Shown: positions 2,267 to 22,884 of the stretch, piece by piece
Position numbering within the stretch: the stretch's first letter is position 1
How the letters are laid out: every line of letters begins with the position of its first letter
Assembly: GCA_004001285.1 (NCBI GenBank)
Contig: AP018698.1
Coordinates: 90,992 to 154,991, forward strand
DNA length: 64,000 bases
Reading direction: 5' to 3'
DNA from: Arthrobacter sp. MN05-02
GTDB lineage: Bacteria; Actinomycetota; Actinomycetes; Actinomycetales; Micrococcaceae
Position numbers and translations under genes: made by a program
Notes under the pieces: model-generated
What the model was told of the DNA's origin: nothing
The model's database searches: none
The model's input: only the letters and a program-made list of their open reading frames with translations

Positions 2267-3754
2267 CTACTCGGCGGCGTACTCTTCCGCGATCATCTCC
2301 TCTTCGTCGGCGTGGACTTCCTCGAACGTCTCGCCGCGCTCGGTGTCCTCGGTGCCCTTCGTGTCTTCGATATCCTCGCCGGGTTCGGTGGTCTGGTTCG
2401 CGCTGTCGAGGATGATCTGCTCGACCTCGCTCGGCGTGTACCCCCACGTGACCAACTGGGTGAGGTAGGTCAGGTGGCTTGCGCTCGGTGAGCGCCACGA
2501 GTCCTTGGTGATCGTCTTCTCAAATCCAGCGCAGACCAGCGCGATCAGGGGCACCTCGGGGCGGGTGGTGGTCTTCGCGACGTGGTCGCGGAGCGGGTTC
2601 CATCCCCACGATTCCTTGCCCTCGATCTTCGCTCCGGCCATGTCAGCAGCCACGGCTGACTCGTAGCCGCTGGCGACCTGAGAGTGGTGGGTCAGGGCGT
2701 GGACGGTGAAGTACTGCCAGCCCTTCGGTGCCTGCTTCTTCGCCAGCAGGGACCGAACGAAATCGCGCCGGACGACCGTCGCCGATTCCATGGCCTTGTT
2801 GTTGGCGATCAGAGTCTTTCGCTCGGCCTTCTGCTCATCGTTCATTGGTCCCTTCGGGGCCGCTGTGCTCGTGGCGTGCCGGAGCGTGAAACCCAGTTCC
2901 TTCCATCCGGTGACGACCGGGATGGTGCTGTACTCGCCGTGGTAGTTGTTGGCGATGCAGAAGGCGTTCGCGTCCTCGTCCGTGGCTCGCTCTCCGTCGG
3001 CTCGAAGCAGACCGGTGACGACCACGTTCTCGTCCGTCGGGTAGTAGCCGTAGCTCACATCTTTAACGACGACGGTCCCGGCGGCTTCCAGTTCGGCCAC
3101 CAGTGCGGCGCGGGCTTCCTCGCGTGCGCGCTTGTCGCGCATCTGCTGGGCGACGTGCGCGAGCATGTCCGGCTCGTCCGCGATGACCGATTCCAGTTCC
3201 TCGGTGGCGTCCTCGTCGCCCTCGAACTCAGCCAGCACGAGAGCTTCCTCGATGGTGCGGCCCTTGGACAATGCGGCCTCACCTGCGGCGCTCTTCTTGG
3301 CCTTCAACGCTCCCTCAACGGTGGTTTTGGCGCGTCCGGTCTTCTTCGCGATCTGCGCCGCGCTCACGCCGAGCAGGGACAGCTGGTGGAAAGCGTCGGC
3401 TTCGTCCGCGTCGGTCAACGCGGACCGTTGAACGTTTTCCACGACCTGCGTGGTGATCCGCTCGGCTTCCTCGGGGCCAGCGACGACCATGACCGGGATC
3501 AGGGGTGTCTCGGCTTCGACCGCGCCGCAGGTGCGGCGCTGTCCCATCAGGACATGCACGGTGGTGGTTTCGTCGCCGTTGTCCCGGCGGTGCGCGATCA
3601 CGGGTTCGATCACGCCGTGCTCCTTGATGCTCGCGACGAACTGGGGCGTCAGGGCGGCGTCCTTGCGCACGTTCACGTCGACGGTGAGCGTGCGCGGGTC
3701 GATCATTTCCAGCGTCGGGGCGGAGGTCGGCTGAGTAGTCAGCTGAGCGTTCAT
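2267..3754 (-). CDS. ParB-like nuclease-fold DNA-binding protein
   Basis: This 495-residue protein starts at an ATG with AAGGAG eight bases upstream. Residues 15-110 match the ParB N-terminal fold: a dipeptide-rich NVRKD..L..QF..SIKEHGVIEPVIAHRR segment, then GQRRTCGAVEA and ENVQRSALT. A helix-turn-helix (VSAAQIAKKTGRAKTTVEGAL) follows near residues 130-150. The long C-terminal part (200-495) ends in an acidic tail and matches no domain I know; it is much longer than in chromosomal ParB. No ParA is in the window. The protein could be a partition protein or a plasmid regulator of the same fold. The gene is preceded by copy A of the repeated leader, which may control it. Confidence 0.85.
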   Translation of the reverse strand: MNAQLTTQPTSAPTLEMIDPRTLTVDVNVRKDAALTPQFVASIKEHGVIEPVIAHRRDNGDETTTVHVLMGQRRTCGAVEAETPLIPVMVVAGPEEAERITTQVVENVQRSALTDADEADAFHQLSLLGVSAAQIAKKTGRAKTTVEGALKAKKSAAGEAALSKGRTIEEALVLAEFEGDEDATEELESVIADEPDMLAHVAQQMRDKRAREEARAALVAELEAAGTVVVKDVSYGYYPTDENVVVTGLLRADGERATDEDANAFCIANNYHGEYSTIPVVTGWKELGFTLRHATSTAAPKGPMNDEQKAERKTLIANNKAMESATVVRRDFVRSLLAKKQAPKGWQYFTVHALTHHSQVASGYESAVAADMAGAKIEGKESWGWNPLRDHVAKTTTRPEVPLIALVCAGFEKTITKDSWRSPSASHLTYLTQLVTWGYTPSEVEQIILDSANQTTEPGEDIEDTKGTEDTERGETFEEVHADEEEMIAEEYAAE

Positions 3755-4122
3755 GGGGTTGTGCTCCTTGGTTGCAGTGGTGAGGTCGGGGCCCTTGGTG
3801 ACCAGCAGTGGACCCTTCCCCCCGTTGTTTTTGCCTGCTGGCGAGCTCGCTCGCTCGTCCCCGACGGAGCACCGTCAACCCGCAGGGCGGGGCCGGCTAG
3901 GAAACCTCGAAGGAAATAAGCGACGCAGGAGCGCCGCAGAGGTTTTTGGCCGGCTACGTCGCGTCAGCGATTGACGGTGTGGAGCGGGGGCGCATAATCC
4001 GCAGGACAGCAGCAAAAAACATATGGACGGGATGCGACGAAGGAGCAGCCTGGCCGAACAGGCCGGAGCGAAGCGAGAGGACCATTGCCCTGGTTGGAGC
4101 GCCAGCGACAATCCTGGGAAGC
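3755..4122 (-). promoter_or_regulatory. Three-copy structured leader, copy A (upstream of parB-like gene)
   Basis: This block ends in the ribosome site of the parB-like gene and recurs at 11400-11770 and 14630-15003 in the same position before two unrelated genes. It can fold into nested helices: 3871-3878 with 3971-3978 (ACCGTCAA/TTGACGGT), 3892-3897 with 3949-3954 (GCCGGC/GCCGGC) and 3902-3908 with 3939-3945 (AAACCTC/GAGGTTT). In the other copies the same helices are built from different bases, which points to a conserved RNA. A hairpin GCCTG/CAGGC sits at 4048-4063. The conserved GGATTATGC word (4000-4008 on the minus strand) may hold a promoter -10, but this is uncertain. Confidence 0.75.
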
Positions 4123-4196
4123 ACTAGAACCGCCGGGCACCCACAAGCGCCAGCACTATTCTTGTGGCTTCCGATGTTTCGGGCTTGAATCGTTCG

Positions 4197-4349
4197 ATGG
4201 TTCCCACGCGATTGAATACGAGCGCATTACCTGACACTTTCGTGCTGATCATTACTGGGATTGCCCTGGCGTCGATCGCCTTGATCGTGGTGTGGGCAGT
4301 GGTGATGGACCGCGTGGATAAAGCAAAGGGTCCGCGATCGAAGAAGTAA
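4197..4349 (+). CDS. Small single-pass membrane protein, unknown
   Basis: The frame gives 50 residues from an ATG at 4197 (another ATG lies 33 bases upstream). Residues 14-37 (VLIITGIALASIALIVVWAVVMD) form one clear transmembrane helix, followed by a short basic tail ending KAKGPRSKK. There is no good ribosome site and no neighbour gives a clue to function. It is listed because the hydrophobic segment with charged ends looks protein-like; it could be a chance frame. Confidence 0.4.
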   Translation: MVPTRLNTSALPDTFVLIITGIALASIALIVVWAVVMDRVDKAKGPRSKK

Positions 4350-4386
4350 GGCAGGACTAGATCGTGCACGCAGCTCCGATCTTCGG

Positions 4387-4572
4387 TCAGGCCTTATAGG
4401 CGTGGTCGGGGCAGTAGTAGCGGCCGGCGTCGACGGTGATCATCCGGTACAGCCAGCCCTCGGGTAGGGGGCGGCCCTCGTCGAGGAGTTTCGTGGTGGC
4501 GCGGCAGATGCAGCACTGCGCCAGGGATGGGGTCCCCAGTGGCTGCGGCGTCCGTGGTGTCTTTGGTGTCAC
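4387..4572 (-). CDS. CxxC / CPDH mini-protein, probable zinc-binding, paralogue of the one at 12137
   Basis: The 61-residue product carries CCICRATTKL near residue 21 and ends YYCPDHAYKA, with GWLYRMI between. The same arrangement (CAEC, GWDYIADEQI, CPAH) is seen in the protein at 12137-12409. Two Cys pairs, one ending in Cys-Pro-x-His, suggest a small zinc ribbon. The gene follows the 75-residue gene at 4582 with a 9-bp gap, so the two are probably co-transcribed. Function is unknown; such proteins often sit in plasmid regulatory or replication regions. Confidence 0.7.
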   Translation of the reverse strand: MTPKTPRTPQPLGTPSLAQCCICRATTKLLDEGRPLPEGWLYRMITVDAGRYYCPDHAYKA

Positions 4573-4581
4573 TGTGGCGGG

Positions 4582-4809
4582 TTAGTCCTCGAAGAAGCGG
4601 CGTGCCTCGTCGGACGCTTCGGCGACGTCGACGGGCCCGAAGCCGCTCGTTCCGCTCGTCAACGTGCTGTCAGCCTCGAGCCGGTCCTCGAGGAGGTTCT
4701 CGAGCGTGGGCGCCTGCAGCTCGGGCAGGTGCAGCTGCAGGTTCTCTCTGAGGTCAGGGCTCAGAGCAACGGGCAGGTCGGGGTGCTCGATGTAGTCCAC
4801 GGGTCCCAT
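4582..4809 (-). CDS. Hypothetical acidic protein, 75 residues
   Basis: The start ATG at 4809 has a good ribosome site (AGGAAGAG). The protein is acidic (MGPVDYIEHPDLPV to ARRFFED) and leucine-rich in the middle (LSPDLRENLQLHLPELQAPT) with no domain I recognise. It lies directly upstream of the CxxC/CPDH mini-protein gene and likely shares its transcript. Composition and codon use match the surrounding backbone genes, which supports a real gene. Confidence 0.65.
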   Translation of the reverse strand: MGPVDYIEHPDLPVALSPDLRENLQLHLPELQAPTLENLLEDRLEADSTLTSGTSGFGPVDVAEASDEARRFFED

Positions 4810-5115
4810 GATCGTCTCTTCCTGGTTGATGAATTGGTGTCACTGTACGTGCCGGCCCTGTCACTTCACCTGCCAGTTCTCGGGGCGCTGTCCCCTGCTT
4901 GTCGCCTGGTGGTCCTGCGCGGTACGTGCAGCTCGGGGCTGGTCCTGGTGGTCGCGCCAGCGTGTATGGCGGCGGCCGGGGGAGATGTTCCTATAGACAA
5001 GCCTGCATTCAAAGCAACATGAGAACGCACCTCGAGGCTTCAGGGGACACCGACTTCTTCGCGCCACATAGATACACCTCGTTCATCAAGTGCAATCAAC
5101 TATTGTTGCTCCCTT
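4810..5115. other. No supported gene
   Basis: A minus-strand frame of 68 codons at 4861-5067 starts with GTG and ends 51 bases before the 4582-4809 gene. Its C-terminal half has high third-position GC and could be a short gene, but there is no ribosome site or known motif. I see nothing else here. Confidence 0.3.
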
Positions 5116-5149
5116 CTTGGGCTAGGTAGACTGGTCTACCTAGTCCAAG
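5116..5149. promoter_or_regulatory. Palindromic operator of the TetR-type regulator
   Basis: CTAGGTAGAC (5122-5131) and GTCTACCTAG (5134-5143) are perfect inverted arms around TG, and flanking CTTGG/CCAAG (5116-5120 and 5145-5149) extends the symmetry with a single mismatch. The site ends 10 bases before the tetR start codon, so the regulator most likely represses its own operon by binding here. Confidence 0.8.
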
Positions 5150-5159
5150 AAAGGTCGCA

Positions 5160-5732
5160 ATGCGAAGTGGTGTGGGATCGGCGCGGGAGCGGTTGCTAGG
5201 TGCGGCGTCGCGGTTGTTTTACGCCGATGGTATGGCAGCGACGGGTATTGACGCGATCACGGCGGAGGCGGGGGTGGCGAAGATGAGCCTGTACAACAAC
5301 TTTTCCTCGAAAGAGGAGCTTGTGTTGGCGTATATCGATGCCCGCCACGAGGAGTGGTTGGAGCTGTACCGTCATCGGGCTGCGAATGCTACCTCGCCCG
5401 TGGACGGGGTGATGGCGGTGTTTGACGCCTACATCGATCACGCGTCGGTCGCCTATCTGCATGGCTTCCGAGGGTGTGGGCTGCTAAATGCGGCCGCGGA
5501 GCTTCCCGTGGGAGCCCCTGGCAGGGATGCGGTGCGCCGCCATAAGGAGCAGGTTGAGTCGATCCTGGTCGGGCACCTTGCCGGGATCGTGTCCCAGTCC
5601 GAGGCCGAGGAAACAGCGGAGCATCTGACGTTTCTGCTCGAAGGGGCGATGAGCCGGGCGGGCCTCGAAGGCCAGCCCGACCGACTCGAGCGCGCCAAGG
5701 CCATCGGCCGTGAACTGGTCGGTTCCCTGTGA
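5160..5732 (+). CDS. TetR/AcrR-family transcriptional regulator
   Basis: The 190-residue protein has the TetR N-terminal helix-turn-helix at residues 8-55 (RERLLGAASRLFYADGMAATGIDAITAEAGVAKMSLYNNFSSKEEL), ending in the usual YNNF/SSKEEL recognition region. The C-terminal ligand domain is of ordinary length. Its operator lies just upstream, and the stop codon overlaps the GTG start of the EamA gene by four bases (GTGA), so the regulator and exporter form one transcript. The likely role is autorepression relieved by a ligand that the exporter handles. Confidence 0.92.
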   Translation: MRSGVGSARERLLGAASRLFYADGMAATGIDAITAEAGVAKMSLYNNFSSKEELVLAYIDARHEEWLELYRHRAANATSPVDGVMAVFDAYIDHASVAYLHGFRGCGLLNAAAELPVGAPGRDAVRRHKEQVESILVGHLAGIVSQSEAEETAEHLTFLLEGAMSRAGLEGQPDRLERAKAIGRELVGSL

Positions 5733-6678
5733 ACCGGCACCGCCTCGTCGGCCTCGGTGCGGTCAGTGTCACGTCCCTGCTCTGGGGGACGACGGGAACC
5801 GCCGCGACCTTCGCCCCGGGCGCCGGCCCGCTGGCGATCGGTGCGGCCGCCCTGGGTGTCGGCGGCCTGTTGCAGGCCCTCATCGCCCTCCCCGCGCTGA
5901 GGGCCGCAGGCCCGGCGCTGCGCGCGAACCTGTCAACAGTCCTCCTGGGCGCGGTGGCGGTCGGGATCTATCCCCTCGCGTTCTACAGCTCCATGCACTA
6001 CGCCGGCGTCGCCGTCGGCTCGGTGGTGTCCCTGGCCTCCGCGCCCCTGGCCTCCGGAGTCCTCGAGCGGCTCATCGACCGACACCCGCTGAGCCGGTGG
6101 TGGATGCTGGCCGCGGGACTCGGCGTCCTGGGCAGCGCGCTGCTGTGCCTGTCGAAGATGCAGGGCCCGGCCGGGACGCCGCCGGAACCGTCATCGGCAC
6201 GGGACTGGGCCTGGTCGCAGGCGGCACCTACGCCACCTACTCGTGGGCGGTCCATCGCCTCATGACCCGCCGGATCAGCCGGGCCGCCTCGATGGGTGCC
6301 GTCTTCGGCGGGGGAGGGCTCCTGCTGATGCCGGTCCTCCTCATCACCGGCGCCCCGCTCATCGCCACCACGGAGGCGTTCCTGGTAGCCGCCTACATGG
6401 CACTGGTGCCGATGTTCCTCGGCTACCTGCTGTTCGGGTTCGGCCTCACCCGCATCTCCGCGAGTACCGCCACCACCGTGACCCTCACGGAACCGGCGAT
6501 CGCGGCGATCCTCGCCGTCGTCATCGTCGGGGAACGGCTCGCCGCCGCAGGCTGGATCGGCCTGGGCATCATCGGCGGAGCGCTGCTGATCCTCGCCTTC
6601 GCCCCAACCAACGCGGAGCAGCCTGCGAACCGTCTCCGGGTGCGTGAACGCCAGCCGACGCTCGACGCGACAACCTAG
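5729..6678 (+). pseudogene. EamA/DMT-family exporter, one frameshift
   Basis: Two frames together encode a complete drug/metabolite transporter with about ten transmembrane helices. The first part (5729 to about 6170) reads MNRHRLVGLGAVSVTSLLWGTTGT, a typical EamA start; the second (to 6678) continues GTVIGTGLGLVAGGTYATYSW and ends with the usual second repeat (TLTEPAIAAILAVVIVGERL). The break is in CAGGGCCCGGCCGGGACG near 6170, where one added G restores the frame. Either the gene is inactive or the base was lost in assembly. The start GTG overlaps the tetR stop, so the two are translationally coupled. Confidence 0.85.
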
Positions 6679-6750
6679 AGTGCACCCGTCATTTCATTGC
6701 GCTGCCCTTCCCTTATGTCCCCCGCTTGAAGAGAACGGATTGACCACGTC

Positions 6751-7812
6751 ATGGCCCCTGATACTCAGCCAACTATCGGCCGCCCGTCATCGATTCATCC
6801 TGTCGTGGAGACGGTCGACTATCATACCGCCGGTGAGCCGTTCCGTATCGTGCCAGCTCCTCCGGTAGCGATCCCCGGTCGGACTGTCGCTGAACGGCGC
6901 GCGAACGCAATCATGGACTCGGACATCGACGGCCTGCGTCGGCTGCTGTGTTTCGAGCCACGCGGCCACGCGGACATGTATGGGGGCTTCATTACCGCGC
7001 CCGATGACGCCGGCGCACATTTCGGTGTTCTGTTCTGGCACAAAGATGGCTTCTCGACCGCCTGCGGGCACGGCACCATCGCACTGGGCGTGTGGGCCGT
7101 CGCTTCGGGCCTGGTGGCCGTCGATCCCAGCGGGTTAACAGATGTTGTCATTGATGTTCCTTCAGGCAGGGTCACAGCCCGCGTACACACAACCACCGAT
7201 GGTCGCGTGACGGAGGTCGACTTCGTGAACGTACCAAGCTCCCTAGTCGCCGCCGGTCTGCCACTATCGACCAGCCGCGGAGAAACTTTAGTAGACCTGG
7301 GATGGGGCGGAGCCCTTTATGCCTGCGTCGACGCAGCGTCCCTCGGCCTACAGGTCACCCCGAAGAACCTGACCGATCTCATCAGCCTCGGTCGCGAGAT
7401 CAAAGCGGCCCTGGCTACTGATCCCCGCATCGAACACCCGACGGACCCCCGACTCAGCGGCGTCTACGGGACCATCATCTTCGAGGATCTGGGCACCCTT
7501 CCTACCGGAGAACTGCACCAACGCAACGTGACGATTTTCGCCGACGGGCAGGTCGACCGGTCTCCTTGCGGATCAGGTTCGGCAGCACGCGTCGCAGTAC
7601 TAACCGCTACGGGCCGACTCACCAACGGTCAGACCCTGGTCCATGACTCGATCGTCGGATCCCGTTTCACCGCCCTCGCACGCACCCGCACCACCGAGCA
7701 CGGCAGGGACGCTGTCATACCCGTCGTGACCGGAACCGCGCACCGCGTCGGTACTTCAAGCTTCGAGGTCGACCCGCACGACACCCTCGTTCCAGGATTC
7801 GTGCTGCGATGA
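6751..7812 (+). CDS. Proline racemase superfamily enzyme (hydroxyproline epimerase or dehydratase-like)
   Basis: The 353-residue protein has the two active-site loops of this superfamily: TACGHGTIALG near residue 107 and DRSPCGSGSAAR near residue 270. Both hold cysteine. In the family, Cys/Cys pairs are typical of proline racemase and 4-hydroxyproline 2-epimerase, while 3-hydroxyproline dehydratases usually have Cys/Thr. The neighbour overlapping by ATGA encodes an ornithine cyclodeaminase-type reductase, the partner expected in 3-hydroxyproline breakdown (pyrroline-2-carboxylate reduction). The residues and the context point to different substrates, so I leave the substrate open within proline and hydroxyproline metabolism. 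Confidence 0.85.
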   Translation: MAPDTQPTIGRPSSIHPVVETVDYHTAGEPFRIVPAPPVAIPGRTVAERRANAIMDSDIDGLRRLLCFEPRGHADMYGGFITAPDDAGAHFGVLFWHKDGFSTACGHGTIALGVWAVASGLVAVDPSGLTDVVIDVPSGRVTARVHTTTDGRVTEVDFVNVPSSLVAAGLPLSTSRGETLVDLGWGGALYACVDAASLGLQVTPKNLTDLISLGREIKAALATDPRIEHPTDPRLSGVYGTIIFEDLGTLPTGELHQRNVTIFADGQVDRSPCGSGSAARVAVLTATGRLTNGQTLVHDSIVGSRFTALARTRTTEHGRDAVIPVVTGTAHRVGTSSFEVDPHDTLVPGFVLR

Positions 7813-8756
7813 CAACCCTCCGCTATCTGGACGAGAATGCCGTCACCGCGGCCCTGGCGCCAGCTGCAGCAGTGGACGCCATAACCGCAGCCCTCACCCA
7901 CGGGTATGACCCCGCAGCCGATACCGCACGAACATCAGCTGCCACGCGAAAGGGACATTTCCTCCTGATGCCCTCCGAAGTCGGTGACCATGTCGGCGTG
8001 AAAGTAGCCACCGTCGCACCGGACAACCCTGCCATCGGCCAGCCGCGCATTCAGGCCGTTTACCTCGCGTTCAATGCCGCAACCCTCACCCTGCAAGCCC
8101 TACTAGATGGAACCGCGCTGACAACACTGCGCACGCCCGCTGTGTCCATCGCCGCAATCCGTCCGGCCCTTCAGCGCTTCACCCGAGCTTTGCGAGTTGT
8201 CGTATTCGGTGCCGGCCCTCAAGCAATCGGGCACGTCCGCACCCTTGCCGCAGTAACCAAGGAACCTCTCGCGTCAGTCACGTTCATCGTGCGCACCCCC
8301 GCCACAGCTACCGCCGCACACCCATACGGTCAGGTCGTCAGAGCCGACACGCCTGCAGCCAACACGGCGTTAAGCTCTGCGCACGTGGTGATTTGCGCGA
8401 CCAGCGCCCGCACGCCCCTCTTCCCGGCAGACGCGATCTCCGCCCAGACAATCGTGATCGCCGTCGGATCCCACCAGCCCGACGCCCGGGAACTGGACAG
8501 CGCCCTGCTCGCCAAGGCCACCGTCATCGTCGAGGACATCGACACCGCGCTCCGAGAAGCAGGCGACATCATTCTCGCCCACGCCGAAGGCGCCCTTCAC
8601 GTAGAGAACCTCATCCCCATGAAGGGTGTCATCGACCACTCCACGACGATTCCCGAGGACAGACCAGTGGTTTTCAAGAGCGTCGGCATGTCATGGCAGG
8701 ACCTGGTCATCGCTACCGCAGTCCTCGAATCCCATACCCCTGCTATGAAGTCATGA
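7809..8756 (+). CDS. Ornithine cyclodeaminase / mu-crystallin family, probable pyrroline-2-carboxylate reductase
   Basis: The 315-residue product shows the family's substrate segment (KGHFLLMPSEVGDHVGVKVATVAPDNP near residue 50) and the nucleotide-binding motif VVFGAGPQAIGHVRTL near residue 135. Family members reduce cyclic imino acids or deaminate ornithine with NAD(P). The start ATG overlaps the preceding racemase-family stop codon, so both are made together. A role as delta1-pyrroline-2-carboxylate reductase in hydroxyproline use is inferred from this pairing. Length is normal for the family. Confidence 0.85.
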   Translation: MTTLRYLDENAVTAALAPAAAVDAITAALTHGYDPAADTARTSAATRKGHFLLMPSEVGDHVGVKVATVAPDNPAIGQPRIQAVYLAFNAATLTLQALLDGTALTTLRTPAVSIAAIRPALQRFTRALRVVVFGAGPQAIGHVRTLAAVTKEPLASVTFIVRTPATATAAHPYGQVVRADTPAANTALSSAHVVICATSARTPLFPADAISAQTIVIAVGSHQPDARELDSALLAKATVIVEDIDTALREAGDIILAHAEGALHVENLIPMKGVIDHSTTIPEDRPVVFKSVGMSWQDLVIATAVLESHTPAMKS

Positions 8757-8793
8757 CATCCTCAAGCACTGCCCCGCCGAACACACTGATTCT

Positions 8794-9897
8794 TTAGATG
8801 TCGGGACTAATTGGTACGAACTTCTTGGGTTCTAGGTCCTTCCTAAGTGCGTGATACAGCTCGCGTGCAACGTAGCGCTTGAGGCTCCGAATGGCATCGG
8901 CGGTGGAATGGCCAAGCGCCTTTTTCCGGTCACGGTAAGCCTGAGATCGAACGTCGTAACGGAGCCGGCAAATAACGATGAGGTAGATGATCTTGTTGGC
9001 TTGTCTGTTGCCGCCACGATGCAGACGCATACGGCTCGTTTTCCCTGATGCCACCGGGATTGGTGCGACGCCGCAGAGCCTGGCGAATGCTGCTTCGCTA
9101 GGGAACCGTTCGATGTTCTGACCAGCTGTTACCAGCAGCTGGGCGGCGCTCACTGGACCCACCTGAGGCAGCGCCATGAGCGTCGGTGCGACGTCATTCG
9201 CGAGTCTGGTGAGGTGCTTGTCCGTCGCGTTGATCTCGGCCGTCAGGTCGAAGATCCGGCGGCCGAGGTCCCTCAGTGCGTACTTCACCGCCTGCTCCGG
9301 CTCGTGTAACCGCGCCATATCCGGGCGAAGCGACTTCGCCTGCATGGCCTTGGCCTGCAGGGTTCTAGCTGTCAGCCGGTGACGCAGTTCCTCCGGCGCT
9401 GTTATAAGGACATCGCGCAGCTGGACTAGTGCGGCTGTCCTAGACTTCACGGCAGAATCCCGCACGAGGTGCAGATTTCGGATGGCTTCCACCGCGCCGG
9501 AGGTGTCTTTCGCAGGGGATGAGCACTCCCCTGACATAACTTTCCGGGCTGCAGCCTCGGCATCGATTGCGTCGCTCTTACCGGACCGGCTACGTACGAG
9601 GGCGTGGCCGCGGTTGACCTCTACGACGTCGACTCCGGCCACCAGAAGGTGGCGGGTGAGGCCGGCACCATAGGACCCAGTGCATTCAACGCCGACGGCG
9701 TTGATGATCCCAAAGCTTGCCGCCCAGTCCAGCAACTCCTGATAGCCCCGGGCGTCTGTAGTGAAGCGCCGCGCCCCGAGCATCACCCCGCGCTCATCGA
9801 GCACTGCGGCGTGGTGCACCTTCGAGTGGGTGTCTACGCCGACGGTAATTGTCCTGACTGACTGTTCCATCGCTGCTGTGGTTGCTGTTGTCGTCAT
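8794..9897 (-). mobile_element. IS110-family transposase
   Basis: The 367-residue protein has the IS110 DEDD nuclease residues: GVDTHSKVHHAA near residue 21, VECTGSYG near 70 and KSDAIDAEAAAR near 107. The C-terminal part has the transposase_20 motif (LPQVGPVSAAQLLVTAG and FARLCGVAPIPVASGK). It appears full length and intact. It sits 37 bases downstream of the reductase gene, in the opposite direction. IS110 elements lack long terminal inverted repeats, so I could not fix the ends by eye. Confidence 0.92.
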
Positions 9898-10298
9898 TCC
9901 TGCTCCTAACGGTTACTCATGAGCGAAGGGCGACCACGGTTGACCGGGCCGGGCGGACAAAGCACTGAACAGCGAAGGCGCACGTTCCTATCAAGTCACA
10001 ACCCCGTCCGGCCCGGTCGCCCACGGTAAGCGGCAGGAGACGAAACACCGACAGATCTCCCCGTGGACCGAACCAGCTACTGCTGGCCGTCAGCTAGCGG
10101 CCAAGTCAGGAATCCCCTCCCCTGCCGTGGCCTATTCTCCTCAGTGCGTGCGACGGAGGCCGCCGCCATACACCCAAGGAAACGCTGGGGGCTCCTGACC
10201 TGGGTGGCTGGGTACGACAAGAGGGCCGGACTCCCGTGGGGGTGAGTGTCCGGCCCTCGGCCTGTGGGTCTAGCTGGTCCCGTTACCAGGCTTGCCTG
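9898..10298. other. Non-coding stretch after the IS110 gene
   Basis: This probably holds the 5' non-coding end of the IS110 element. I see no gene. A strong terminator hairpin at 10221-10258 is listed separately. Confidence 0.5.
10221..10258 (-). terminator. Hairpin terminator after the DUF4192 gene
   Basis: GAGGGCCGGAC (10221-10231) pairs with GTCCGGCCCTC (10248-10258) over 11 bp. It lies 40 bases beyond the stop codon of the minus-strand gene ending at 10299. Confidence 0.75.
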
Positions 10299-11399
10299 TT
10301 AGTGGTGATCGCGCTGGTGGTACGCGGTGCGTTCGTTTTGCGCGGCCAGCGGGAGGATTCCGCGGCCGACCATTTCCCGCATCAGCCGTGAGAGTCGGTG
10401 CTGGGAGTCGGTCTCGATGGCCTTGTCGAAGTAGGCGGCGGCGACAGAGGACGATCCGCGGTACCAGCGTAGCCAGCCGAGGAAGCAGAACAGCGGGGCG
10501 CGGTCCTCGAGGGGCGTGTACGCGAGGACCTTGACTAGCAGCTCCTCGGTCGCTTCCACGCGGGACCAGTCGAGCTGTCCCTCGTACCTGCCGGTCATGA
10601 CCTGCTGGTAGGTGGTTTCGTCGTCGGCGCCGCTGATGGCGTCGGCCATGATCCGGTCCCGGATGGTCTTGATCAGCAGGTAGCCGGTCAGCTCACAGGC
10701 CGCCTGCTCGGTGGTGTCCTCGCCGATGGCCTCATTCCAGAGTGCGCGGGCGGCGCACATTGCGTGGTGTCCGAAGTCCAGCGCGGCGGGTGCTCCGAGC
10801 CGATCCACCCAGTAAGCGGCGTCGGAGATCGTGTTGTGTGCATCGTCGCTGCCGATGAACGCGGGGTCGGCGGTCATGTTCGCGGGGTGTTCCTGCGTGC
10901 TGTAGCCGCGATAGACCAGCTCGGCGTTCATGGCGCTGTCGCGGATCTCGTCGGTGGGGTTGAGCTCACAGCACCCGCTCTCTTCGCAGAAGTAGGGCGT
11001 CCATCCCCTGTCGGTGACAAGCCATCCGTTGCGGATGCTCATGCCGACGTGCTCCAGCTCGGCCTCGATGGCCTGCGCGTAGGCCATGTAGGGCTTGGCG
11101 TCGGGGTTCTCACCCGACTGGGCGGCTTCGGCTACCTCGTTCGTGTAGATGAACAGCAGGACGCCGTCGGCGGCGGTGTCCGCGAGCAGGTAGTGCATGA
11201 CGCCCTGCGCGAAGTCTGCCGGGCGGGTCAGGTCGGCGGGGGCGTCGAGCCTCAGGGTGGCGCCGGTGGTGTTGCCGCGCATGGTGACGAAGGCGAAGGA
11301 TTCGCGCGGCTGGAAGCCGAGTGCGCTGGGGACGAATGCGAGCAGGTCAGCGGCCGTCGTGGCGGTCAGCTGGTGGTTGTGCTGGGTGTTCTCGTTCAT
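10299..11399 (-). CDS. DUF4192 domain protein
   Basis: From the ATG at 11399 (AAGGAG seven bases upstream) the product is 366 residues. It opens with LLAFVPSALGFQPRESFAFVTMRG, the hallmark of DUF4192, a family found widely on actinobacterial chromosomes and plasmids with no known activity. The C-terminal part (GWLRWYRGSSSVAAAYFDKAIE) resembles a TPR-like helical pair. The frame stays open upstream into the leader to 11639, but the ribosome site fixes the start at 11399. Copy B of the repeated leader precedes it, so it may be co-regulated with the parB-like gene and the gene at 14192. Confidence 0.85.
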   Translation of the reverse strand: MNENTQHNHQLTATTAADLLAFVPSALGFQPRESFAFVTMRGNTTGATLRLDAPADLTRPADFAQGVMHYLLADTAADGVLLFIYTNEVAEAAQSGENPDAKPYMAYAQAIEAELEHVGMSIRNGWLVTDRGWTPYFCEESGCCELNPTDEIRDSAMNAELVYRGYSTQEHPANMTADPAFIGSDDAHNTISDAAYWVDRLGAPAALDFGHHAMCAARALWNEAIGEDTTEQAACELTGYLLIKTIRDRIMADAISGADDETTYQQVMTGRYEGQLDWSRVEATEELLVKVLAYTPLEDRAPLFCFLGWLRWYRGSSSVAAAYFDKAIETDSQHRLSRLMREMVGRGILPLAAQNERTAYHQRDHH

Positions 11400-11770
11400 G
11401 GTGTTGCTCCTTGGTTGCAGTAGTGGTGTCGGGCCCCTTGGTGACCAGCAGTGGACCCTTCCCCCGTTGTTTTTTGCCTGCTGTCGAGCTCGCTCGCTCG
11501 TCCCCGACGGAGCCGTGTCCAACCCGAAGGGCGGAGGGCCCGGCAAATAAGGGAGGAAATAAGCGACGCAGGAGCGCCGGACGCATTTGGTGGGCCCGGC
11601 GTCGGCGCAGCCGATTGACGCGGTGGAGCGGGGACGCATAATCCGCAGGACAGCAGCAAAAAGACCCGGACGGGATGCGACGAAGGAGCAGCCTGGCCGG
11701 AACAGGCCGGAGCGAAGCGAGAGGACCGTTTCCCTGGTTGGAGCGCCAGCGACAATCCTGGGGAAGCCTG
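11400..11770 (-). promoter_or_regulatory. Three-copy structured leader, copy B (upstream of DUF4192 gene)
   Basis: This copy is nearly identical to copy C over its 3' two thirds and clearly related to copy A. The nested helices seen in copy A are kept with different bases: CCGTGTCCAA (11513-11522) with TTGACGCGG (11615-11623), GGGCCC (11536-11541) with GGGCCC (11592-11597), and CAAAT (11544-11548) with ATTTG (11585-11589). The enclosed GGAAATAAGCGACGCAGGAG (plus strand) is the same in all three copies. It ends in the AAGGAG ribosome site of the DUF4192 gene. Confidence 0.75.
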
Positions 11771-11817
11771 CAAACCAGAGGGACCAACACCCGCCGGCCC
11801 GGGGTGGTTAAAGAGGT

Positions 11818-11851
11818 GGGAGTGGCAGCTGCACCACCAGCTACCACTCCC
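11818..11851 (-). terminator. Hairpin terminator after the small DNA-binding protein gene
   Basis: GGGAGTGG (11818-11825) pairs with CCACTCCC (11844-11851), and AGCTG/CAGCT inside strengthens the stem. It lies 30 bases beyond the stop of the minus-strand gene ending at 11883. The plus strand also has CGTTTTC after the stem. Confidence 0.7.
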
Positions 11852-11882
11852 GTTTTCTTGCGTTTCCCTGCAACAAGGAAAT

Positions 11883-12140
11883 CTAGTGGGCCCGGTTCTT
11901 CTCTTCCTCGAGAGTCCGTCGGCCTGGCCGGAGGGCCCCCGGTGCTACCGGTTCCCACTTCCTGCCCTGGTTGTGCTTGCGCTGCAGGCGCTTCACCTCG
12001 CGCATCACAGCTGCTTCGATCAAGTCTGTCACAGACCGGTACCCCTCGGCCTGCCCTGCGGCGAGGAACGCAGCCCGCACCTGGTCCGCGTCGGTCTGTG
12101 TGAAGTACGGCGTGAAAGACGCCGGCTTGCGCTTACTCAC
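11883..12140 (-). CDS. Small partition-like DNA-binding protein
   Basis: The 85-residue protein starts with GTG at 12140, with GAGGAG upstream, and overlaps the preceding gene's stop (GTGA). The core FTQTDADQVRAAFLAAGQAEGYRSVTDLIEAAVMREVKRLQRKHNQG looks like a ribbon-helix-helix or related compact DNA-binding fold. It recalls small ParB/centromere-binding proteins of actinobacterial plasmids (serine-rich turn, then a helix with MREVKRLQ). No ParA is next to it. It could instead be a copy-number or transfer regulator. Confidence 0.65.
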   Translation of the reverse strand: MSKRKPASFTPYFTQTDADQVRAAFLAAGQAEGYRSVTDLIEAAVMREVKRLQRKHNQGRKWEPVAPGALRPGRRTLEEEKNRAH

Positions 12141-12409
12141 CTGCTACTCCTCGTTGTCGGATGCTCCTGGCCGTGATGGCGGTTGATGCCGCTGCCCTGT
12201 TCGCCTAGCTCGCCCCACTTGTAGATCCTGATGATGTCCTGCCAGCCCTCCGGCAGCCGGTTCCGGTGTGCCGGGCAGAGGATGATCTGCTCATCGGCGA
12301 TGTAGTCCCAGCCCTTCGGCGTCCCATCCCCCGTGAGCGCCAGTGGGGAGGTTCGTCCGCATTCGGCGCACTCGGCCACCTGGTCACTTGCTGGTCGATT
12401 CGCGGGCAT
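12137..12409 (-). CDS. CxxC / CPAH mini-protein, probable zinc-binding, paralogue of the one at 4387
   Basis: The 90-residue protein has CAECGRTSPL near residue 14, GWDYIADEQIILCPAH near 35-50 and a GW repeat after it. The layout CxxC, then GW..I, then CPxH matches the gene at 4387-4572. The stop codon overlaps the GTG start of the small DNA-binding gene, so the two form one operon read toward 11883. The function is unknown. A zinc ribbon that contacts DNA or protein is a reasonable guess. Confidence 0.75.
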   Translation of the reverse strand: MPANRPASDQVAECAECGRTSPLALTGDGTPKGWDYIADEQIILCPAHRNRLPEGWQDIIRIYKWGELGEQGSGINRHHGQEHPTTRSSR

Positions 12410-12537
12410 CCGTCCAGTGTGTCAGGGAACCTGTCAGCGCTACGTTCTACGCTTCGTTGTGGAGCCCTGTCCTCAGGTGTCCGTCGTAGTCCATCTACCG
12501 TGTGCCCTGGGCAGGACTTCATGCGTGCTCCCCTAGT

Positions 12538-12915
12538 TCACCGGTAGCCCTGCCGGTTGATGGCGTTCTGTGCCTGTGCCAGTTCGGCTCCGAGCTGCTT
12601 GGCGAGGGCAGCGGCACGGGTCAGGTGATCGGTCGCTGTGGCGATCGACTGGACCGGGTCCCGGCCGTCGTCCTCGTAGACGTCGTGGGTGTCCAGAGAC
12701 TTCCCGAGGCCGGCGGCGAGCTGGTTGAGCGCCTGCGGCAGCATGTACTCGACGCCTTTGAGGTTCCCCAGCACCCTGTAAGCGACCGGGGCCGGAATGG
12801 ACCTGCCGGGCAAGCTCTCATGGCAGAGGATGCGCAGCTCCTCATAGATCGTGTCAGCGGCCTCTACAATCACAGGTGTTTCGTCATCCGTCATAGACGT
12901 TTCCTCGTCTGACAT
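12538..12915 (-). CDS. Hypothetical plasmid backbone protein, 125 residues
   Basis: Start ATG at 12915 is supported by AAAGGATCACC directly upstream; the longer frame to 12999 has no such site. The N-terminus is acidic and disordered (MSDEETSMTDDETP), and the rest is helical, with ALNQLAAGLGKSLDTHDVYEDDGRDP followed by an Ala/Gln-rich helix (AAALAKQLGAELAQAQNAI). I do not recognise a domain. It lies between the mini-protein operon and ssb, all on the same strand, so it is part of the backbone gene row. Confidence 0.65.
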   Translation of the reverse strand: MSDEETSMTDDETPVIVEAADTIYEELRILCHESLPGRSIPAPVAYRVLGNLKGVEYMLPQALNQLAAGLGKSLDTHDVYEDDGRDPVQSIATATDHLTRAAALAKQLGAELAQAQNAINRQGYR

Positions 12916-13030
12916 GGTGATCCTTTCGCTCTGATGCATCGAACGTACTCGGTCAATGGTTCTGATCGGTGTATTGGCGGCCACCGTAGGGCTGGCCACT
13001 GACGCCTGATGGTGCCGAGGTGCAGGATGC

Positions 13031-13058
13031 GGGGTGGCCGGACTCGACCGGCCACCCC
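13031..13058 (-). terminator. Hairpin terminator after ssb
   Basis: GGGGTGGCCGG (13031-13041) pairs with CCGGCCACCCC (13048-13058) over 11 bp, 10 bases beyond the ssb stop codon. Confidence 0.8.
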
Positions 13059-13067
13059 GTCACACGC

Positions 13068-13598
13068 TTAGAACGGCGGTTCGCTCTCGGGGCCGTTGCC
13101 CCACCCGCCGGCACCTGTTGCTGCGGGGGCTCCCCACGGATCATCGGCCGGCTGCTGCTGCCACGCGGCATTGCCCTGGTTGCTGTGTCCGCCGTGCTGC
13201 GCTCCCCCACCCTGGCCGTTACCGGAGCTGGCCCGCTGGGTGCGGGTGACTTTCGCGGAGGCGTAGCGCAGGCTCGGTCCGACCTCGTCGACCTCGAGTT
13301 CCATGACGGTGCGCTTCTCGCCTTCCTTGGTGTCGTAGCTGCGGGACTTCAACCGGCCCTGGGCGATGACGCGGGTTCCCTTGGTCAGTGTCTCGGCGAC
13401 GTTCTCGGCCGATTCGCGCCAGACATTGCAGCGCATGAATAGGGTTTCGCCGTCCTTCCAGTCGTTGCTCTGCCGGTCGAACGTGCGCGGGGTGGAGGCG
13501 ATGGTGAAGTTGGCGACCGCTGACCCGCTGGGGGTGAAGCGGAGTTCGGGATCCGCGGTGAGGTTGCCGATGACGGTGATGATGGTTTCTCCGGCCAT
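13068..13598 (-). CDS. ssb: Single-stranded DNA-binding protein
   Basis: The ATG at 13598 gives 176 residues; a TTG nine bases upstream is possible but too close to the purine-rich site. Residues 1-110 are the OB fold ([29 protein letters not shown], then [21 protein letters not shown] and [21 protein letters not shown]). A Gly/Gln-rich linker leads to an acidic tip ending ESEPPF, the usual site for partner proteins. Length is normal. It lies downstream of nrdH on the same strand. Plasmid SSB protects single strands during transfer and replication. Confidence 0.97.
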
Positions 13599-13712
13599 GA
13601 TGCTCAACTGCCTTATCTATGGATGCTGGTGGTGTCGTTGATTTCAGTGCTTCTGTGTCTCCGTACTCACGTACTTACAGAGTCCGGTACTCCCGCATGT
13701 GCACGCGGGTCA

Positions 13713-13970
13713 TTACTGCGTGGAGTCGAGGGCAATGACCTGGCTGATCTTGCTGGGGTTCAGGCCGGACCAGTGGTCCTCGCTGCCGTCCTTTTCGTAC
13801 ACGACGACCGGTGCCTGGCTGTAGCCGAGCTCGTCGGTGATGTAGGCCAGCGCCTGGTCGTTGGTGGTGATGTCCACGGTGGTGAACTGGACGCCAGCGG
13901 CGTCGAACAGTTCCTTCGTCTTCTTGCATCCGAAACAGCCCGATGGCTTCTCGTAGATGGTGATGGTCAT
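13713..13970 (-). CDS. nrdH: NrdH-type glutaredoxin-like redoxin
   Basis: The 85-residue protein begins MTITIYEKPSGCFGCKKTKELF, with the redox CxxC at residues 12-15, and ends with the conserved segment APVVVYEKDG..DHWSGLNPSKI typical of NrdH. NrdH passes electrons from thioredoxin reductase to class Ib ribonucleotide reductase; no nrdEF genes are in the window, so this copy would serve the chromosomal enzyme or another protein. The start codon has AAGGA 10 bases upstream, and an AT-rich palindrome lies about 75 bases upstream. Confidence 0.93.
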   Translation of the reverse strand: MTITIYEKPSGCFGCKKTKELFDAAGVQFTTVDITTNDQALAYITDELGYSQAPVVVYEKDGSEDHWSGLNPSKISQVIALDSTQ

Positions 13971-14042
13971 GGCGCTCAGTCCTTGGTTACGTATCGGTAT
14001 TAGTGAGAGTCGACTGCTTGTGCTGCTGGTACTAATTTTATC

Positions 14043-14062
14043 GTTTATTCATCTGAATAAAC
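14043..14062. promoter_or_regulatory. AT-rich palindrome upstream of nrdH
   Basis: GTTTATTC (14043-14050) and GAATAAAC (14055-14062) are perfect 8-bp arms separated by ATCT. The surrounding minus strand has TAAAAT just downstream, a possible -10. Being so AT-rich in a GC-rich region, it is a plausible operator for the nrdH-ssb transcript. Confidence 0.5.
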
Positions 14063-14145
14063 AGCACTTTTCGCGCTATTGTGTATCTTCCGGGGTCTGA
14101 TGCATGCCGTTGGCGTCGGTGATCCCGGCCGGGCAGAAGGGCTGG

Positions 14146-14176
14146 GCCGCACCCCGCCCGGTGGGCGGGGTGCGGC
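14146..14176 (-). terminator. Very strong hairpin terminator
   Basis: GCCGCACCCCGCCC (14146-14159) pairs with GGGCGGGGTGCGGC (14163-14176) over 14 bp with a 3-nt loop, 15 bases beyond the stop of the minus-strand gene ending at 14192. Confidence 0.8.
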
Positions 14177-14191
14177 TGTGGTCAGCGACTT

Positions 14192-14629
14192 CTAGCACCG
14201 GTGGATGCATCCGTAGGGCTTGGTCAACTCGTCGTCCAGCTCCTCGGCCGTGGCGGGCAGGTGAGCCGGCCGGTCAGCTTGTCCGTGCTTCCAGTACCAG
14301 AAAACCTCGGCGGTGATCGCCTTGTGGCAGGCGTCCTCAGCGCGGTACCAGTGCGTGTAGGTGTCACCCTCGATGTAAGTCCCGTACCCGTACAGGGTGC
14401 CCGTCTCGTCGTGGTGGGTGGCGGTGGCGAAGAAGACGTAGGGCCAGGATCCGGCGTCCCATCCGTCGGTCCCCCACGCGCCCATGACCTTCCACGGACT
14501 GCCGGTGAGGGTGTCGAGCCAGTCGTACCCGTCGCCGGTGCGGTCATCCACGGGCAGGACCGGGGCGTTGACGGTTTCCTCGGTGTCCTTCGTGGTGGTG
14601 CTGACCAGAACTGCGGTATCGGTGTTCAC
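14192..14629 (-). CDS. Hypothetical protein controlled by leader copy C
   Basis: A GTG at 14629, with AAGGAG eight bases upstream, gives 145 residues. The frame is open upstream to 14869, but that part is leader sequence. The protein is rich in Trp, Tyr, Asp and Thr (GDGYDWLDTLTGSPWKVMGAWGTDGWDAGSWPYVFFATATH) and ends KPYGCIHRC. I recognise no family. Because it shares its leader with the parB-like and DUF4192 genes, it is likely a backbone gene under the same control. Confidence 0.7.
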   Translation of the reverse strand: MNTDTAVLVSTTTKDTEETVNAPVLPVDDRTGDGYDWLDTLTGSPWKVMGAWGTDGWDAGSWPYVFFATATHHDETGTLYGYGTYIEGDTYTHWYRAEDACHKAITAEVFWYWKHGQADRPAHLPATAEELDDELTKPYGCIHRC

Positions 14630-15003
14630 AGTGTTGCTCCTTGGTTGCAGTAGTGGTGTCGGGCCCCTTGGTGACCAGCAGTGGACCCTTCCCCCCGTTG
14701 TTTTTGCCTGCTGGCGAGCTCGCTCGCTCGTCCCCGACGGAGCCGTGTCCAACCCGAAGGGCGGAGGGCCCGGCAAATAAGGGAGGAAATAAGCGACGCA
14801 GGAGCGCCGGACGCATTTGGTGGGCCCGGCGTCGGCGCAGCCGATTGACGCGGTGGAGCGGGGACGCATAATCCGAAGGACAGCAGCAAAAACGTCGTAG
14901 ACACGTCAGGGTCGGGTGCGACGAAGGAGCGCCCGACCCTCATCAGGCCGAAGCGAAGCGCAGGACCTTTGCCTGGTCGGAGCGCCAGCGGAACCCCGGG
15001 AAG
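14630..15003 (-). promoter_or_regulatory. Three-copy structured leader, copy C
   Basis: From 14630 to about 14892 this copy is almost identical to copy B. Upstream it diverges: the A/B hairpin region is replaced by a different perfect stem, AGGGTCGGG (14908-14916) with CCCGACCCT (14932-14940), around the conserved loop word TGCGACGAAGGAGC. The far end again matches (GGAGCGCCAGCG). The swap of stem with conserved loop supports an RNA or DNA structure under selection. Confidence 0.75.
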
Positions 15004-15065
15004 TTTGCGAAGGAGCGTCGCTTTCGAGTTCAGCGGTTGTCTGTCACGGGCGGTAGCTTGAAATC

Positions 15066-15995
15066 ATGCATACAGACCTCTTGAAAGCCTCCGCAACAGA
15101 ACGCCGGCGCCTACTAACCGCGTTGGCCATCTCGCGTGCTTCAGAGCATCCGACGTCGATAGCTGTTACTACTGATCAGGTTGCCGCCGAGCTGGTGAAA
15201 CTGGGCGAGGATCCGTCATCACTCGAGGGTGACTTTTTGATCATGAGCAACAACTACGGGTGGCTGCAGCCGCTAGAACACGCTCTCAGCGGTGGGAGTG
15301 AAGTGTGGATGCGCCAGGAAGGCATTGACGCGGCCAGGGAGGTTGCGGAGCAGATTGCTAACAAGCGCACGAGAAGGAAAGTTCTTCGCGACGAGCTATT
15401 GGCGTGGCTGTACGAGCAGCAGTATGACGAGCAAGTTCCCGACCCAATGCCAGCCGACTTTGCGGAAACCGAGAACCACTATTTCGGTGATTCATACACT
15501 GCAGAGGAAGTGGATACAGCTGGTGGAGAGCTCCTCGAGAGGGGCTTGATTGAAGGCGACATGGCGGGTGGCTATCGGAGTCCTCAGCGTGCAGTGCTCA
15601 CGGAGAAGGGCCGTCAGATGATCGACAACGATCCACCACAGGAACAGTCAACATCGGGCGGAGACAACTACTACATCAATGCGCCGTCGAACTTTGCTGT
15701 TCGTAGCTCAAATACTCAGCAGAATCTAGGCGCCTCACAACCATGGGTCCGCAAACTCTCAGACGTAGTGGAGGTAGCTCCAGCATGGTTGAGTGCGCAG
15801 GGTGCCAACGCGCCGGAAGCACGACAGGTGATTATCGAGCTGCAAGCGGTTGCGGAGGCTCCTCAACCAGACGCTTCCCGGGCACGGAAGCTGCTGATCA
15901 GATTAGGCGAGCTAATTCAGGACGCCGGCGCAGGAGCTTTGGGTGGCGTCCTGCTGTCGGCCATTGAGTCCACTCTTGGCATCATGCCCGGTTAA
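15066..15995 (+). CDS. Unknown protein, possible winged-helix N-terminal part
   Basis: The 309-residue protein starts at an ATG after GGTAGCTTGAAATC, without a strong ribosome site. Residues 90-190 are helical with a pattern like a winged-helix effector reader (LRDELLAWLYEQQYD, then GGELLERGLIEGDMAGGYRSPQRAVLTEKGRQMI). Then comes GGDNYYINAPSNFAVRSSNTQQNL (about 200-223), an Asn-rich segment also found in front of effector or adaptor regions in other actinobacterial proteins of unknown role. The C-terminal third is Ala/Leu-rich. Codon use is less GC-rich than in its neighbours, which suggests recent transfer. A defence or regulatory role is possible but unproven. Confidence 0.6.
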   Translation: MHTDLLKASATERRRLLTALAISRASEHPTSIAVTTDQVAAELVKLGEDPSSLEGDFLIMSNNYGWLQPLEHALSGGSEVWMRQEGIDAAREVAEQIANKRTRRKVLRDELLAWLYEQQYDEQVPDPMPADFAETENHYFGDSYTAEEVDTAGGELLERGLIEGDMAGGYRSPQRAVLTEKGRQMIDNDPPQEQSTSGGDNYYINAPSNFAVRSSNTQQNLGASQPWVRKLSDVVEVAPAWLSAQGANAPEARQVIIELQAVAEAPQPDASRARKLLIRLGELIQDAGAGALGGVLLSAIESTLGIMPG

Positions 15996-21685: not shown

Positions 21686-21828
21686 CGTGGCTTGGCGATG
21701 GGTTAGATGACTGTTCGCACGATCCTGTAGGACGGGCTCGGTTCTCACGCTTCCCTCATCTTCCGCGCCTACAGTGAAGAACCCGGGACAAGGCATCTGC
21801 CTTTCCCCTCACGAAGAAGGAGTTTCTT

Positions 21829-22092
21829 ATGGGATTGTTTGGCAGCCGAAGTAAGGCGGGACGACTCGCGTCCAAGGCACTGGACTTCATCAGCAGCAAC
21901 CCTGACAAGGTCAACAACGGTGTCGCGAAAGCTAGCGACTTCGTGAACAAGCGGACTCACAGCAAGTACTCGCGACACATCACTGGGGCCCAAACGAAAG
22001 CCACGGACGCTGTCGCGAAGCTCAACCGGAAAAACGGTCGCGGTGGTCTCAATGGTCGTGGTGGCGGGCCGGGATCCGGGCCCGTCAGATAG
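21829..22092 (+). CDS. Rv0909/MT0933-type antitoxin-like small protein
   Basis: The 87-residue protein has AAGGAG seven bases before its ATG. MGLFGSRSKAGRLASKALDFISSNPDKVNNGVAKASDFVNKRTHSKYSRHITGAQTKATDAVAKL matches the antitoxin family named after Rv0909: a GLF start, a K..D.V..GV.K..DFV..KT...Y..HI..A core. In that family a toxin gene follows, but no toxin is next to it here, so it may be a solitary or housekeeping member. The Gly-rich basic tail (RKNGRGGLNGRGGGPGSG) is unusual. Confidence 0.7.
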   Translation: MGLFGSRSKAGRLASKALDFISSNPDKVNNGVAKASDFVNKRTHSKYSRHITGAQTKATDAVAKLNRKNGRGGLNGRGGGPGSGPVR

Positions 22093-22335
22093 CGGTCTGT
22101 CACCCGCGTGGCTTTCCTCACCCGCGACGACCAGGACATGGCGGACTTCGAACGCATCAGCACCACAATTGTCGATGAGCTTCATACACCGCAGTGAGGT
22201 AGGACGCCCAACACATTCACGCCAACGAGGATTCAGTCGACCAGGACGCGGGGCACGCCCACGCCGTCATGACCTGGCAGGCTGCCCGCGAGATGCCGCT
22301 TGGTTTTACTAGGGCCGGTGATGCCGCTGACTTGC

Positions 22336-22834: not shown

Positions 22835-22884
22835 GTCCCTAGGTGTCGAGGGAACTGTTCCGGCCTTCACCATTTACCTCTTCC

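Follow-up and report, generated by a model that had tools for sequence, protein, structure and literature searches.

What is the role of three similar blocks of about 370 nt that stand directly before three different backbone genes of an Arthrobacter plasmid? The question is raised by a 64,000-nt stretch of Arthrobacter sp. MN05-02 DNA (contig AP018698.1, positions 90,992 to 154,991; hereafter the window, whose coordinates are used throughout). A sequence-only reading had placed the blocks at 3755-4122 (copy A), 11400-11770 (copy B) and 14630-15003 (copy C), and had taken their nested helices for a conserved RNA structure, possibly a riboregulator or an attenuator. The blocks were found at these places, all three read on the - strand: copy A abuts the start of a ParB-like gene, copy B that of a DUF4192 gene (11399, - strand) and copy C that of the gene at 14192-14629 (- strand), each block ending in the ribosome site AAGGAG just before the gene start. 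The helix arms said to distinguish copy A from copies B and C were also found in the sequence. Pairwise identities in the alignment are 86.8% (A-B), 81.8% (A-C) and 91.5% (B-C), and no further copies were found in the whole genome of this strain, where both BLAST and the covariance model R1 (see below, strict filters) returned 3 matches, the three of the window. The paired cores of B and C are almost identical, so that the window alone offers two independent versions of the structure.

Comparison with 33 relatives established that the blocks hold a conserved, covarying secondary structure. In an alignment of 33 copies, which was built without structure but from which the structure itself was derived, 23 of the 38 pairs vary on both sides (shuffle mean 15.5), bearing out the compensatory changes noticed in the window. 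With the structure held fixed, 95.8% of cells are paired, compared with 80.5% in shuffles, and none of 500 shuffles reached either the paired fraction or the number of two-sided changes. When the partners were slid by one to three columns, the paired fraction was 30.7-50.4%. As the sequence-only reading had proposed, a covariance model was then searched: R1, built on the 33 copies in the + reading, gave 129 matches in 86 stretches. A length filter of 180-216 nt was passed by 120 of these, 106 were unique, and the loss of an opposite-strand reflection and a degraded chromosomal copy left 104 distinct copies, in Micrococcaceae. Clustering at 85% reduced the 104 to 37 non-redundant rows, or 36 for promoter counts once a row cut at a contig end had been dropped. 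Alignments A1 and A2 were drawn from 38 cores with the omission of 6 and 5, respectively (duplicate, truncated, overlapping, poly-C or degraded); A1 also lacks copy C of the window. All counts are inflated by related sequences.

BLAST found relatives in 51 plasmid records, all of which belong to the genera Arthrobacter, Pseudarthrobacter, Paenarthrobacter and Citricoccus. Of the 295 genomes sampled in the family, 90 gave a match, some through alignments of only 24-41 nt. With strict filters and the own genome counted, R1 matched 15 of the 297 genomes searched in the order and 2 of 246 in the class, both of the latter within the order. Some copies lie on chromosome-sized contigs. One of these, at locus L014, contains a run of dozens of C near 1637-1678 within the copy, possibly an assembly artefact.

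The core common to distant relatives is a hairpin of about 190 nt on the + strand, located at 3828-4017 in copy A (DNA fold -55.3 kcal/mol; 192.4 bits with R1, whose training alignment contains copy A itself), and at 11471-11661 in copy B (184.9 bits) and 14701-14891 in copy C (187.7 bits), where a DNA fold and a promoter scan were also obtained. The most distant relatives align only from about query position 102-113 onward, and only closer relatives share the outer third of the block. More specifically, the outer part of copy A (4018-4122, - strand) is kept in the alignment of close relatives; it contains GCGACGAAGGAGC, which is like the apical motif GCGACGCAGGAGC and possibly marks a second hairpin. 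Between the hairpin and the ParB-like gene lies a predicted 5' untranslated stretch with the ribosome site (3755-3827, - strand). The apical motif of copy A, GGAAATAAGCGACGCAGGAGCGCCG (3912-3936, + strand), ranks with the best-conserved sequence in the family, and a promoter does not need such a motif. The sequence-only reading had allowed that the block might prove to be translated in a conserved frame. This did not occur for the hairpin core: no conserved coding frame was found there, any frame being open in at most 22 of 36 rows, and the lengths of the core occupy all three classes modulo 3 in the same 36 rows.

The two strands of the hairpin are not equivalent. A function in the sense RNA predicts G.U pairs on the sense strand, which correspond to A.C on the + strand, and the deviations from Watson-Crick pairing were mostly opposite to this expectation. 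The consensus fold of 32 rows was more stable on the + strand with RNA parameters (-82.0 against -67.9 for the sense strand) as well as with DNA parameters (-43.6 against -30.5), and the excess of + over complement beat the shuffle average in 30 of 37 non-redundant rows (Wilcoxon p = 3e-7; the rows are related). When helices were chosen by Watson-Crick pairs only, the 37 rows held 53 G.T against 29 A.C, both read on the + strand, so that 53 wobbles speak for the + and 29 for the minus strand (binomial p 0.011, from cells that are not independent). Among 17 non-redundant rows, the pairs common to both folds gave 26 wobbles for the + strand against 9, and a structure chosen on the + strand gave 79 against 21; a structure chosen on the sense strand was neutral when wobble cells were counted (39 for the + strand, 44 against) and favoured the + strand when counted by pairs (19 against 9). 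Taken together, the fold energies and the majority of the wobble counts speak for the + strand, which is the template strand of the genes. Such wobble asymmetry can help to separate a folded-DNA element from an RNA leader. A possible pairing of CUCC loops in the sense RNA with the ribosome sites was given up when the + strand emerged as the favoured one. Searches of Rfam gave no match on any block of the window at the gathering threshold, none on any block within 3500-15300 at E values up to 5, and none on a block at 12 loci with diverged copies at E values up to 0.1.

In every copy of the window, the 3' arm of the 190-nt hairpin formed by the + strand reads TTGACG-N16-CATAAT, a sequence that scores 10 out of 12 as a sigma-70-like promoter. 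In copy A, the -35 element TTGACG (3971-3976, + strand) is predicted to pair with the 5' arm ACCGTCAA, and the -10 element CATAAT (3993-3998, + strand), 16 nt away, would lie in an open internal loop. The promoter scan placed the -35 and -10 elements at 11615-11620 and 11637-11642 in copy B and at 14845-14850 and 14867-14872 in copy C, all on the + strand. A 1-kb region around each copy, scanned on both strands, held one sigma-70-like site, the one in the hairpin, compared with 0.1-0.2 in shuffles. Across the 36 non-redundant rows the best spacer was 16 nt in 33 (ties being assigned to 16); at this spacing the -35 element starts with T in 34 of 36 rows, and its third base is G in 33. The -10 element is mostly T/C-A-N-A-A-T, similar to TANAAT; the A in second place and the T in sixth place were required by the search pattern itself. 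A strict 9-of-12 rule was passed inside the hairpin by 18 of 36 rows on the + strand and by 0 of 36 on the minus strand, so half of the hairpins fail it even on the + strand.

Predicted DNA folds of the 36 rows gave mean pairing values of 0.81 for the -35 element, 0.73 for the spacer and 0.91 for the base helix, as opposed to 0.25 for the first five bases of the -10 element and 0.14 for the A at -11. For the conserved T at -7 these folds mostly predict pairing (0.74), which counts against the open-promoter reading. The 3' half of the -35 element drifts (ACG, TGC, AAC); of the 9 pairs in the -35 helix, 6 show two-sided changes. Six genomes supplied eight diverged copies in which the model match ends before the -10 element; all eight carry TTG-N3-N15..17-NANNNT (8/8), a pattern with an appreciable chance per row in a set where three of the eight are close relatives and from which one further match at 11.6 bits was left out. 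Judged by eye from translations, the reading frames that follow these copies include DUF4192 genes, one ParB-like gene and a primase-like ORF. A hairpin variant with a different base and TTGCGT-N16-GATGAT was seen at loci L121 and L122, on a chromosome-sized contig of genome G024, and at L127; the first two stand before DUF4192-like genes, again by eye. The + strand, presumed to be the transferred one, is thus predicted to rebuild -35 and -10 elements within one stem-loop, as expected of an Frpo/ssi-type single-stranded promoter. In a folded promoter of this kind the 3' arm is the non-template strand, so that the template would be first the 5' arm and thereafter the adjoining single strand, and transcription would run toward the gene. 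On intact double-stranded DNA, the identical -35 and -10 elements would fire away from the genes.

The genes behind the hairpins were examined in the window and across the family. Copy A precedes the ParB-like gene (2267-3754, - strand; PF02195, 28.6 bits against a cutoff of 26.3) and copy B the DUF4192 gene (10299-11399, - strand; PF13830, 116.2 bits). Copy C precedes the gene for an acidic protein of 145 aa (14192-14629, - strand) without a Pfam match, which belongs to a first-gene cluster of 16 members, itself counted; further downstream are genes for a glutaredoxin-like protein (13713-13970, - strand; PF00462) and a single-stranded DNA-binding protein (SSB; 13068-13607, - strand; PF00436, 109.8 bits). 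PADLOC found no match among 8 proteins, including the acidic one, and Foldseek searches with confident models of the two uncharacterised downstream proteins returned nothing at E <= 0.001. The best Foldseek hits of the N-terminal domain of the DUF4192 model (pLDDT 86.9) were to RadC (probability 0.99-1.0, target TM 0.58-0.69, E 0.02-0.12) and are suggestive only, and the acidic protein (pI about 4.5, model pLDDT 88.4) gave weak, non-significant hits to PUR nucleic-acid-binding repeats.

A first downstream gene could be assigned to 101 of the 104 copies, the other 3 lying at stretch ends. The distance from hairpin to chosen start codon has a median of 76 nt (71-81 nt in half of the copies, 10-90% range 53-265), and a word resembling a ribosome site precedes the start in 95 of the 101, the ORFs having been chosen by a heuristic that favours such words. 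The largest clusters of first genes, named from one representative each, are ParB-like (27), DUF4192 (19), an uncharacterised 142-aa family (16) and DprA (8), followed by an 88-aa family (5), ArdC (3), DUF3560 (2) and DUF3846 (1); the remaining clusters are small or single, and some are probably no genes. Hence the proposal of the sequence-only reading that a common control element lies ahead of several backbone genes holds, the blocks preceding ParB-like, DUF4192, DprA and ArdC genes. The DprA genes stand behind these predicted promoters on several plasmids (for example 21759-22933 at locus L037 and 37204-38403 at L035), and a role of DprA in the establishment of incoming single strands would be new to us.

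The orientation of the copies was compared with that of the conjugation genes. The first part of a gene for a MobF (TrwC) relaxase lies at 1-986 on the - strand (start codon placed by eye) and continues to the left of the window (PF08751, 276.1 bits, at G000:C2:90718-91908 on the - strand), and all three hairpins point toward it. A candidate oriT at 976-1500 is conserved before this gene, with 83.5% identity to the corresponding stretch of pAAG24-152. No nick site could be assigned in the conserved stretch before the MobF gene, and a search of both strands over the 520 nt upstream of mobC in five MOBP plasmids did not find the motif ATCCTG. A coupling-protein domain is encoded elsewhere on the contig of the window. 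On eight plasmids with a relaxase gene in the stretch, all 24 copies point toward the relaxase (24/24); three of these plasmids are MOBF (the own plasmid, pAAG24-152 and pChr15) and five MOBP (the pNicSoilB4 record, pMK-1, FB24 plasmid 2, pADNL1 and pLDW-10), partial stretches rather than full records having been used for L034, L035, L130, L131 and L136. Eleven records hold more than one copy, and within each of them the copies (31 in all) lie on the same strand, a count that stands apart from three weak opposite-strand reflections (25.6-31.7 bits). Relaxase genes typically lie in the lagging region, according to the accessible text of PMC11541004. By this rule, the copies are expected to lie in the leading region, and the + strand would enter the recipient and act as template. 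An orientation toward the relaxase is expected of a single-stranded promoter in a conjugative leading region, and not of an attenuator. The stretch between copies A and B (5160-9897) holds genes on the + strand for a TetR regulator, an EamA protein, a proline racemase and an ornithine cyclodeaminase, together with an IS110-type transposase gene, all of them apparently cargo that was inserted into the leading region.

The switching on of plasmid genes during entry into the recipient is known from enterobacterial plasmids, and single-stranded promoters are known from E. coli plasmids. We propose, with considerable confidence, that each block is an Frpo-like single-stranded DNA promoter of the plasmid leading region that serves establishment genes. 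What was computed is that the + strand can fold with a TTG(N3)-N16-TANAAT 3' arm, that the arms covary and that the elements precede establishment-type genes and point toward the relaxase gene; the use of the folded strand by a polymerase and the steps that follow are what we infer. During conjugation, the strand that is + here would enter the recipient with its 5' end first and fold, the -35 element and spacer being paired and most of the -10 element lying in an open internal loop. The host RNA polymerase would bind this folded strand like a promoter already opened at -10, take the 5' arm as template and leave the base of the hairpin onto the single strand. Messenger RNA for the ParB-like protein, the DUF4192 protein, the acidic 145-aa protein, the glutaredoxin and the SSB could thus be made before the second strand, with a leader of only about 80-90 nt rather than 370. 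Synthesis of the complement would abolish the hairpin and silence the genes, and the transcript may also prime second-strand synthesis.

Against this proposal we weighed the original one, in which a promoter upstream on the minus strand gives a structured leader RNA that folds ahead of the ribosome site as riboregulator or attenuator. The covariation is real, the site stands directly before the genes and ends in a ribosome site, a terminator-like hairpin can be drawn on the sense strand at 3937-3920, 11579-11564 and 14809-14794, and the wobble cells are neutral if the sense strand is used to choose the structure. However, the sense strand folds worse, and the majority pairs 45-187, 50-183 and 32-199 of alignment A2 are G.T on the + strand and therefore A.C in the sense RNA. 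No hairpin among the 36 showed a sigma-70-like promoter on the minus strand, and only one of the 36 did when flanks of 250 nt were included; Rfam gave no match, and the conserved -35 and -10 elements of the opposite strand would be left unexplained. With fold energy and all but one neutral wobble count on the side of the + strand, the RNA interpretation was not supported and we consider it improbable. Another alternative is a single-strand origin (sso), at which a polymerase would read the fold only for the primer of the second strand while the genes use other promoters. The sso sites of Gram-positive bacteria are folded single-strand sites, some of them used by the host RNA polymerase, as described in the accessible text of PMC4595007, and several copies and strand dependence are compatible with such a role; but pure priming needs neither a start codon typically 71-81 nt away nor a ribosome-site word in 95 of 101 cases, and hardly any alternative promoter was detected on the sense strand. 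We regard the sso role by itself as quite unlikely, and note that promoter and sso roles may coexist, as for Frpo.

An ordinary double-stranded promoter on the + strand, directing a divergent small RNA or antisense regulator, would account for TTGACG-N16-CATAAT and its score of 10 out of 12. The homology of distant relatives ends just past the base of the hairpin, so that no conserved transcript body is present in most of them; moreover the drifting half of the -35 element sits in a covarying helix that a plain promoter does not need, and the fixed direction to the relaxase is unexplained. Its probability appears slight. The least probable alternative, which we give hardly any weight, is a partition or replication site made of parS-like repeats. 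Repeats near a ParB-like gene would suit it, and a later paper cites these repeats in connection with plasmid partitioning and conjugation (accessible text of PMC10494377). Centromere sites, however, need no compensatory change in long arms, no strand asymmetry, no -35 and -10 elements at a fixed spacer and no direction to a relaxase, and the copies precede DprA, ArdC and DUF3560 genes too.

The single-stranded promoter remains our preferred reading, and a more far-reaching form of it can be put forward only tentatively, as less likely than not. The actinobacterial single-stranded promoters, unrelated in sequence to Frpo, might combine a swappable base that holds the promoter with a near-fixed apical module, GAGGAAATAAGCGACGCAGGAGCGCCG, to which a dedicated factor would be recruited, such as primase, SSB or a plasmid protein like the ParB-like protein. 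One folded strand might then both transcribe the establishment genes and prime the second strand, and the zygotic regulon might comprise DUF4192, DprA, ArdC, DUF3560, DUF3846 and the acidic 142-aa family. If the promoter reading is true, a sequence model would mark the leading region and the transferred strand of Micrococcales plasmids, and position behind such a promoter would single out candidate genes for establishment and anti-defence, DUF4192 and the acidic 142-aa family among them. It would also explain the 'DNA repeats' reported in 2016.

These repeats themselves are already in print: Mihasan and Brandsch (2016) are cited for conserved DNA repeats 5' of DUF4192, DprA and ParB genes on 12 Arthrobacter plasmids (via PMC10494377 and PMC6305408), and the citing passages of both papers link them to partitioning and conjugation, with no single-stranded promoter. 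We found no promoter reading of the repeats in the accessible portions of the open-access literature, and no comparable entry-promoter system in actinobacteria in that literature. Samuel et al. (accessible text of PMC11541004) extended their search from known Frpo/ssi elements to candidates taken from a few islands, and a word beginning with 'actino' is absent from its main text.

Several known systems are comparable. The sites ssoA, ssoU and sso1 of ICEBs1 share a folded single-strand structure, specific orientation and, in some cases, recognition by RNA polymerase (accessible text of PMC4595007); whereas they make primers, the present elements precede genes with ribosome sites, several per plasmid. 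The EGeRS of the pLS20 family are likewise a common control element before several establishment genes of a Gram-positive plasmid, but differ in being longer, in having no promoter in the fold and in a transferred strand that is the non-template one (accessible text of PMC8708921). The closest functional relatives appear to be Frpo1 and Frpo2 of F, which the accessible text of PMC9849209 describes as stem-loops with -10 and -35 boxes, 92% alike, repeated before leading genes and required for early transient expression. Blocks of 540 nt, about 90% identical, are repeated in the F leading region, one of them before ssb, and the genes lie on one strand and run toward the transfer region; they include SSB, ParB-like and anti-restriction genes as here and, in F, also a methylase gene. 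The presumed transferred strand of the F blocks is again the more stable (-8.1 against -2.6 +- 3.5 in shuffles, and -11.6 against -4.0 +- 3.3). Our box rule did not recover clean -35 and -10 elements in the F Frpo blocks, so that the F control reproduces the strand asymmetry only. On an 18-kb stretch of F that holds the leading region, R1 gave no credible match, the highest score being 12.2 bits for a fragment of 28 nt; a similar-looking word, GCAGGACACAGCAGC, in F was accordingly rejected as a sign of homology, and descent from Frpo is unsupported, so that the element is better described as one that would 'work like' Frpo. In comparison with the Frpo and ssi elements of F and ColIb-P9, it has a core of about 190 nt with a conserved apical motif, and it occurs in actinobacterial hosts, on MOBF and MOBP plasmids alike.
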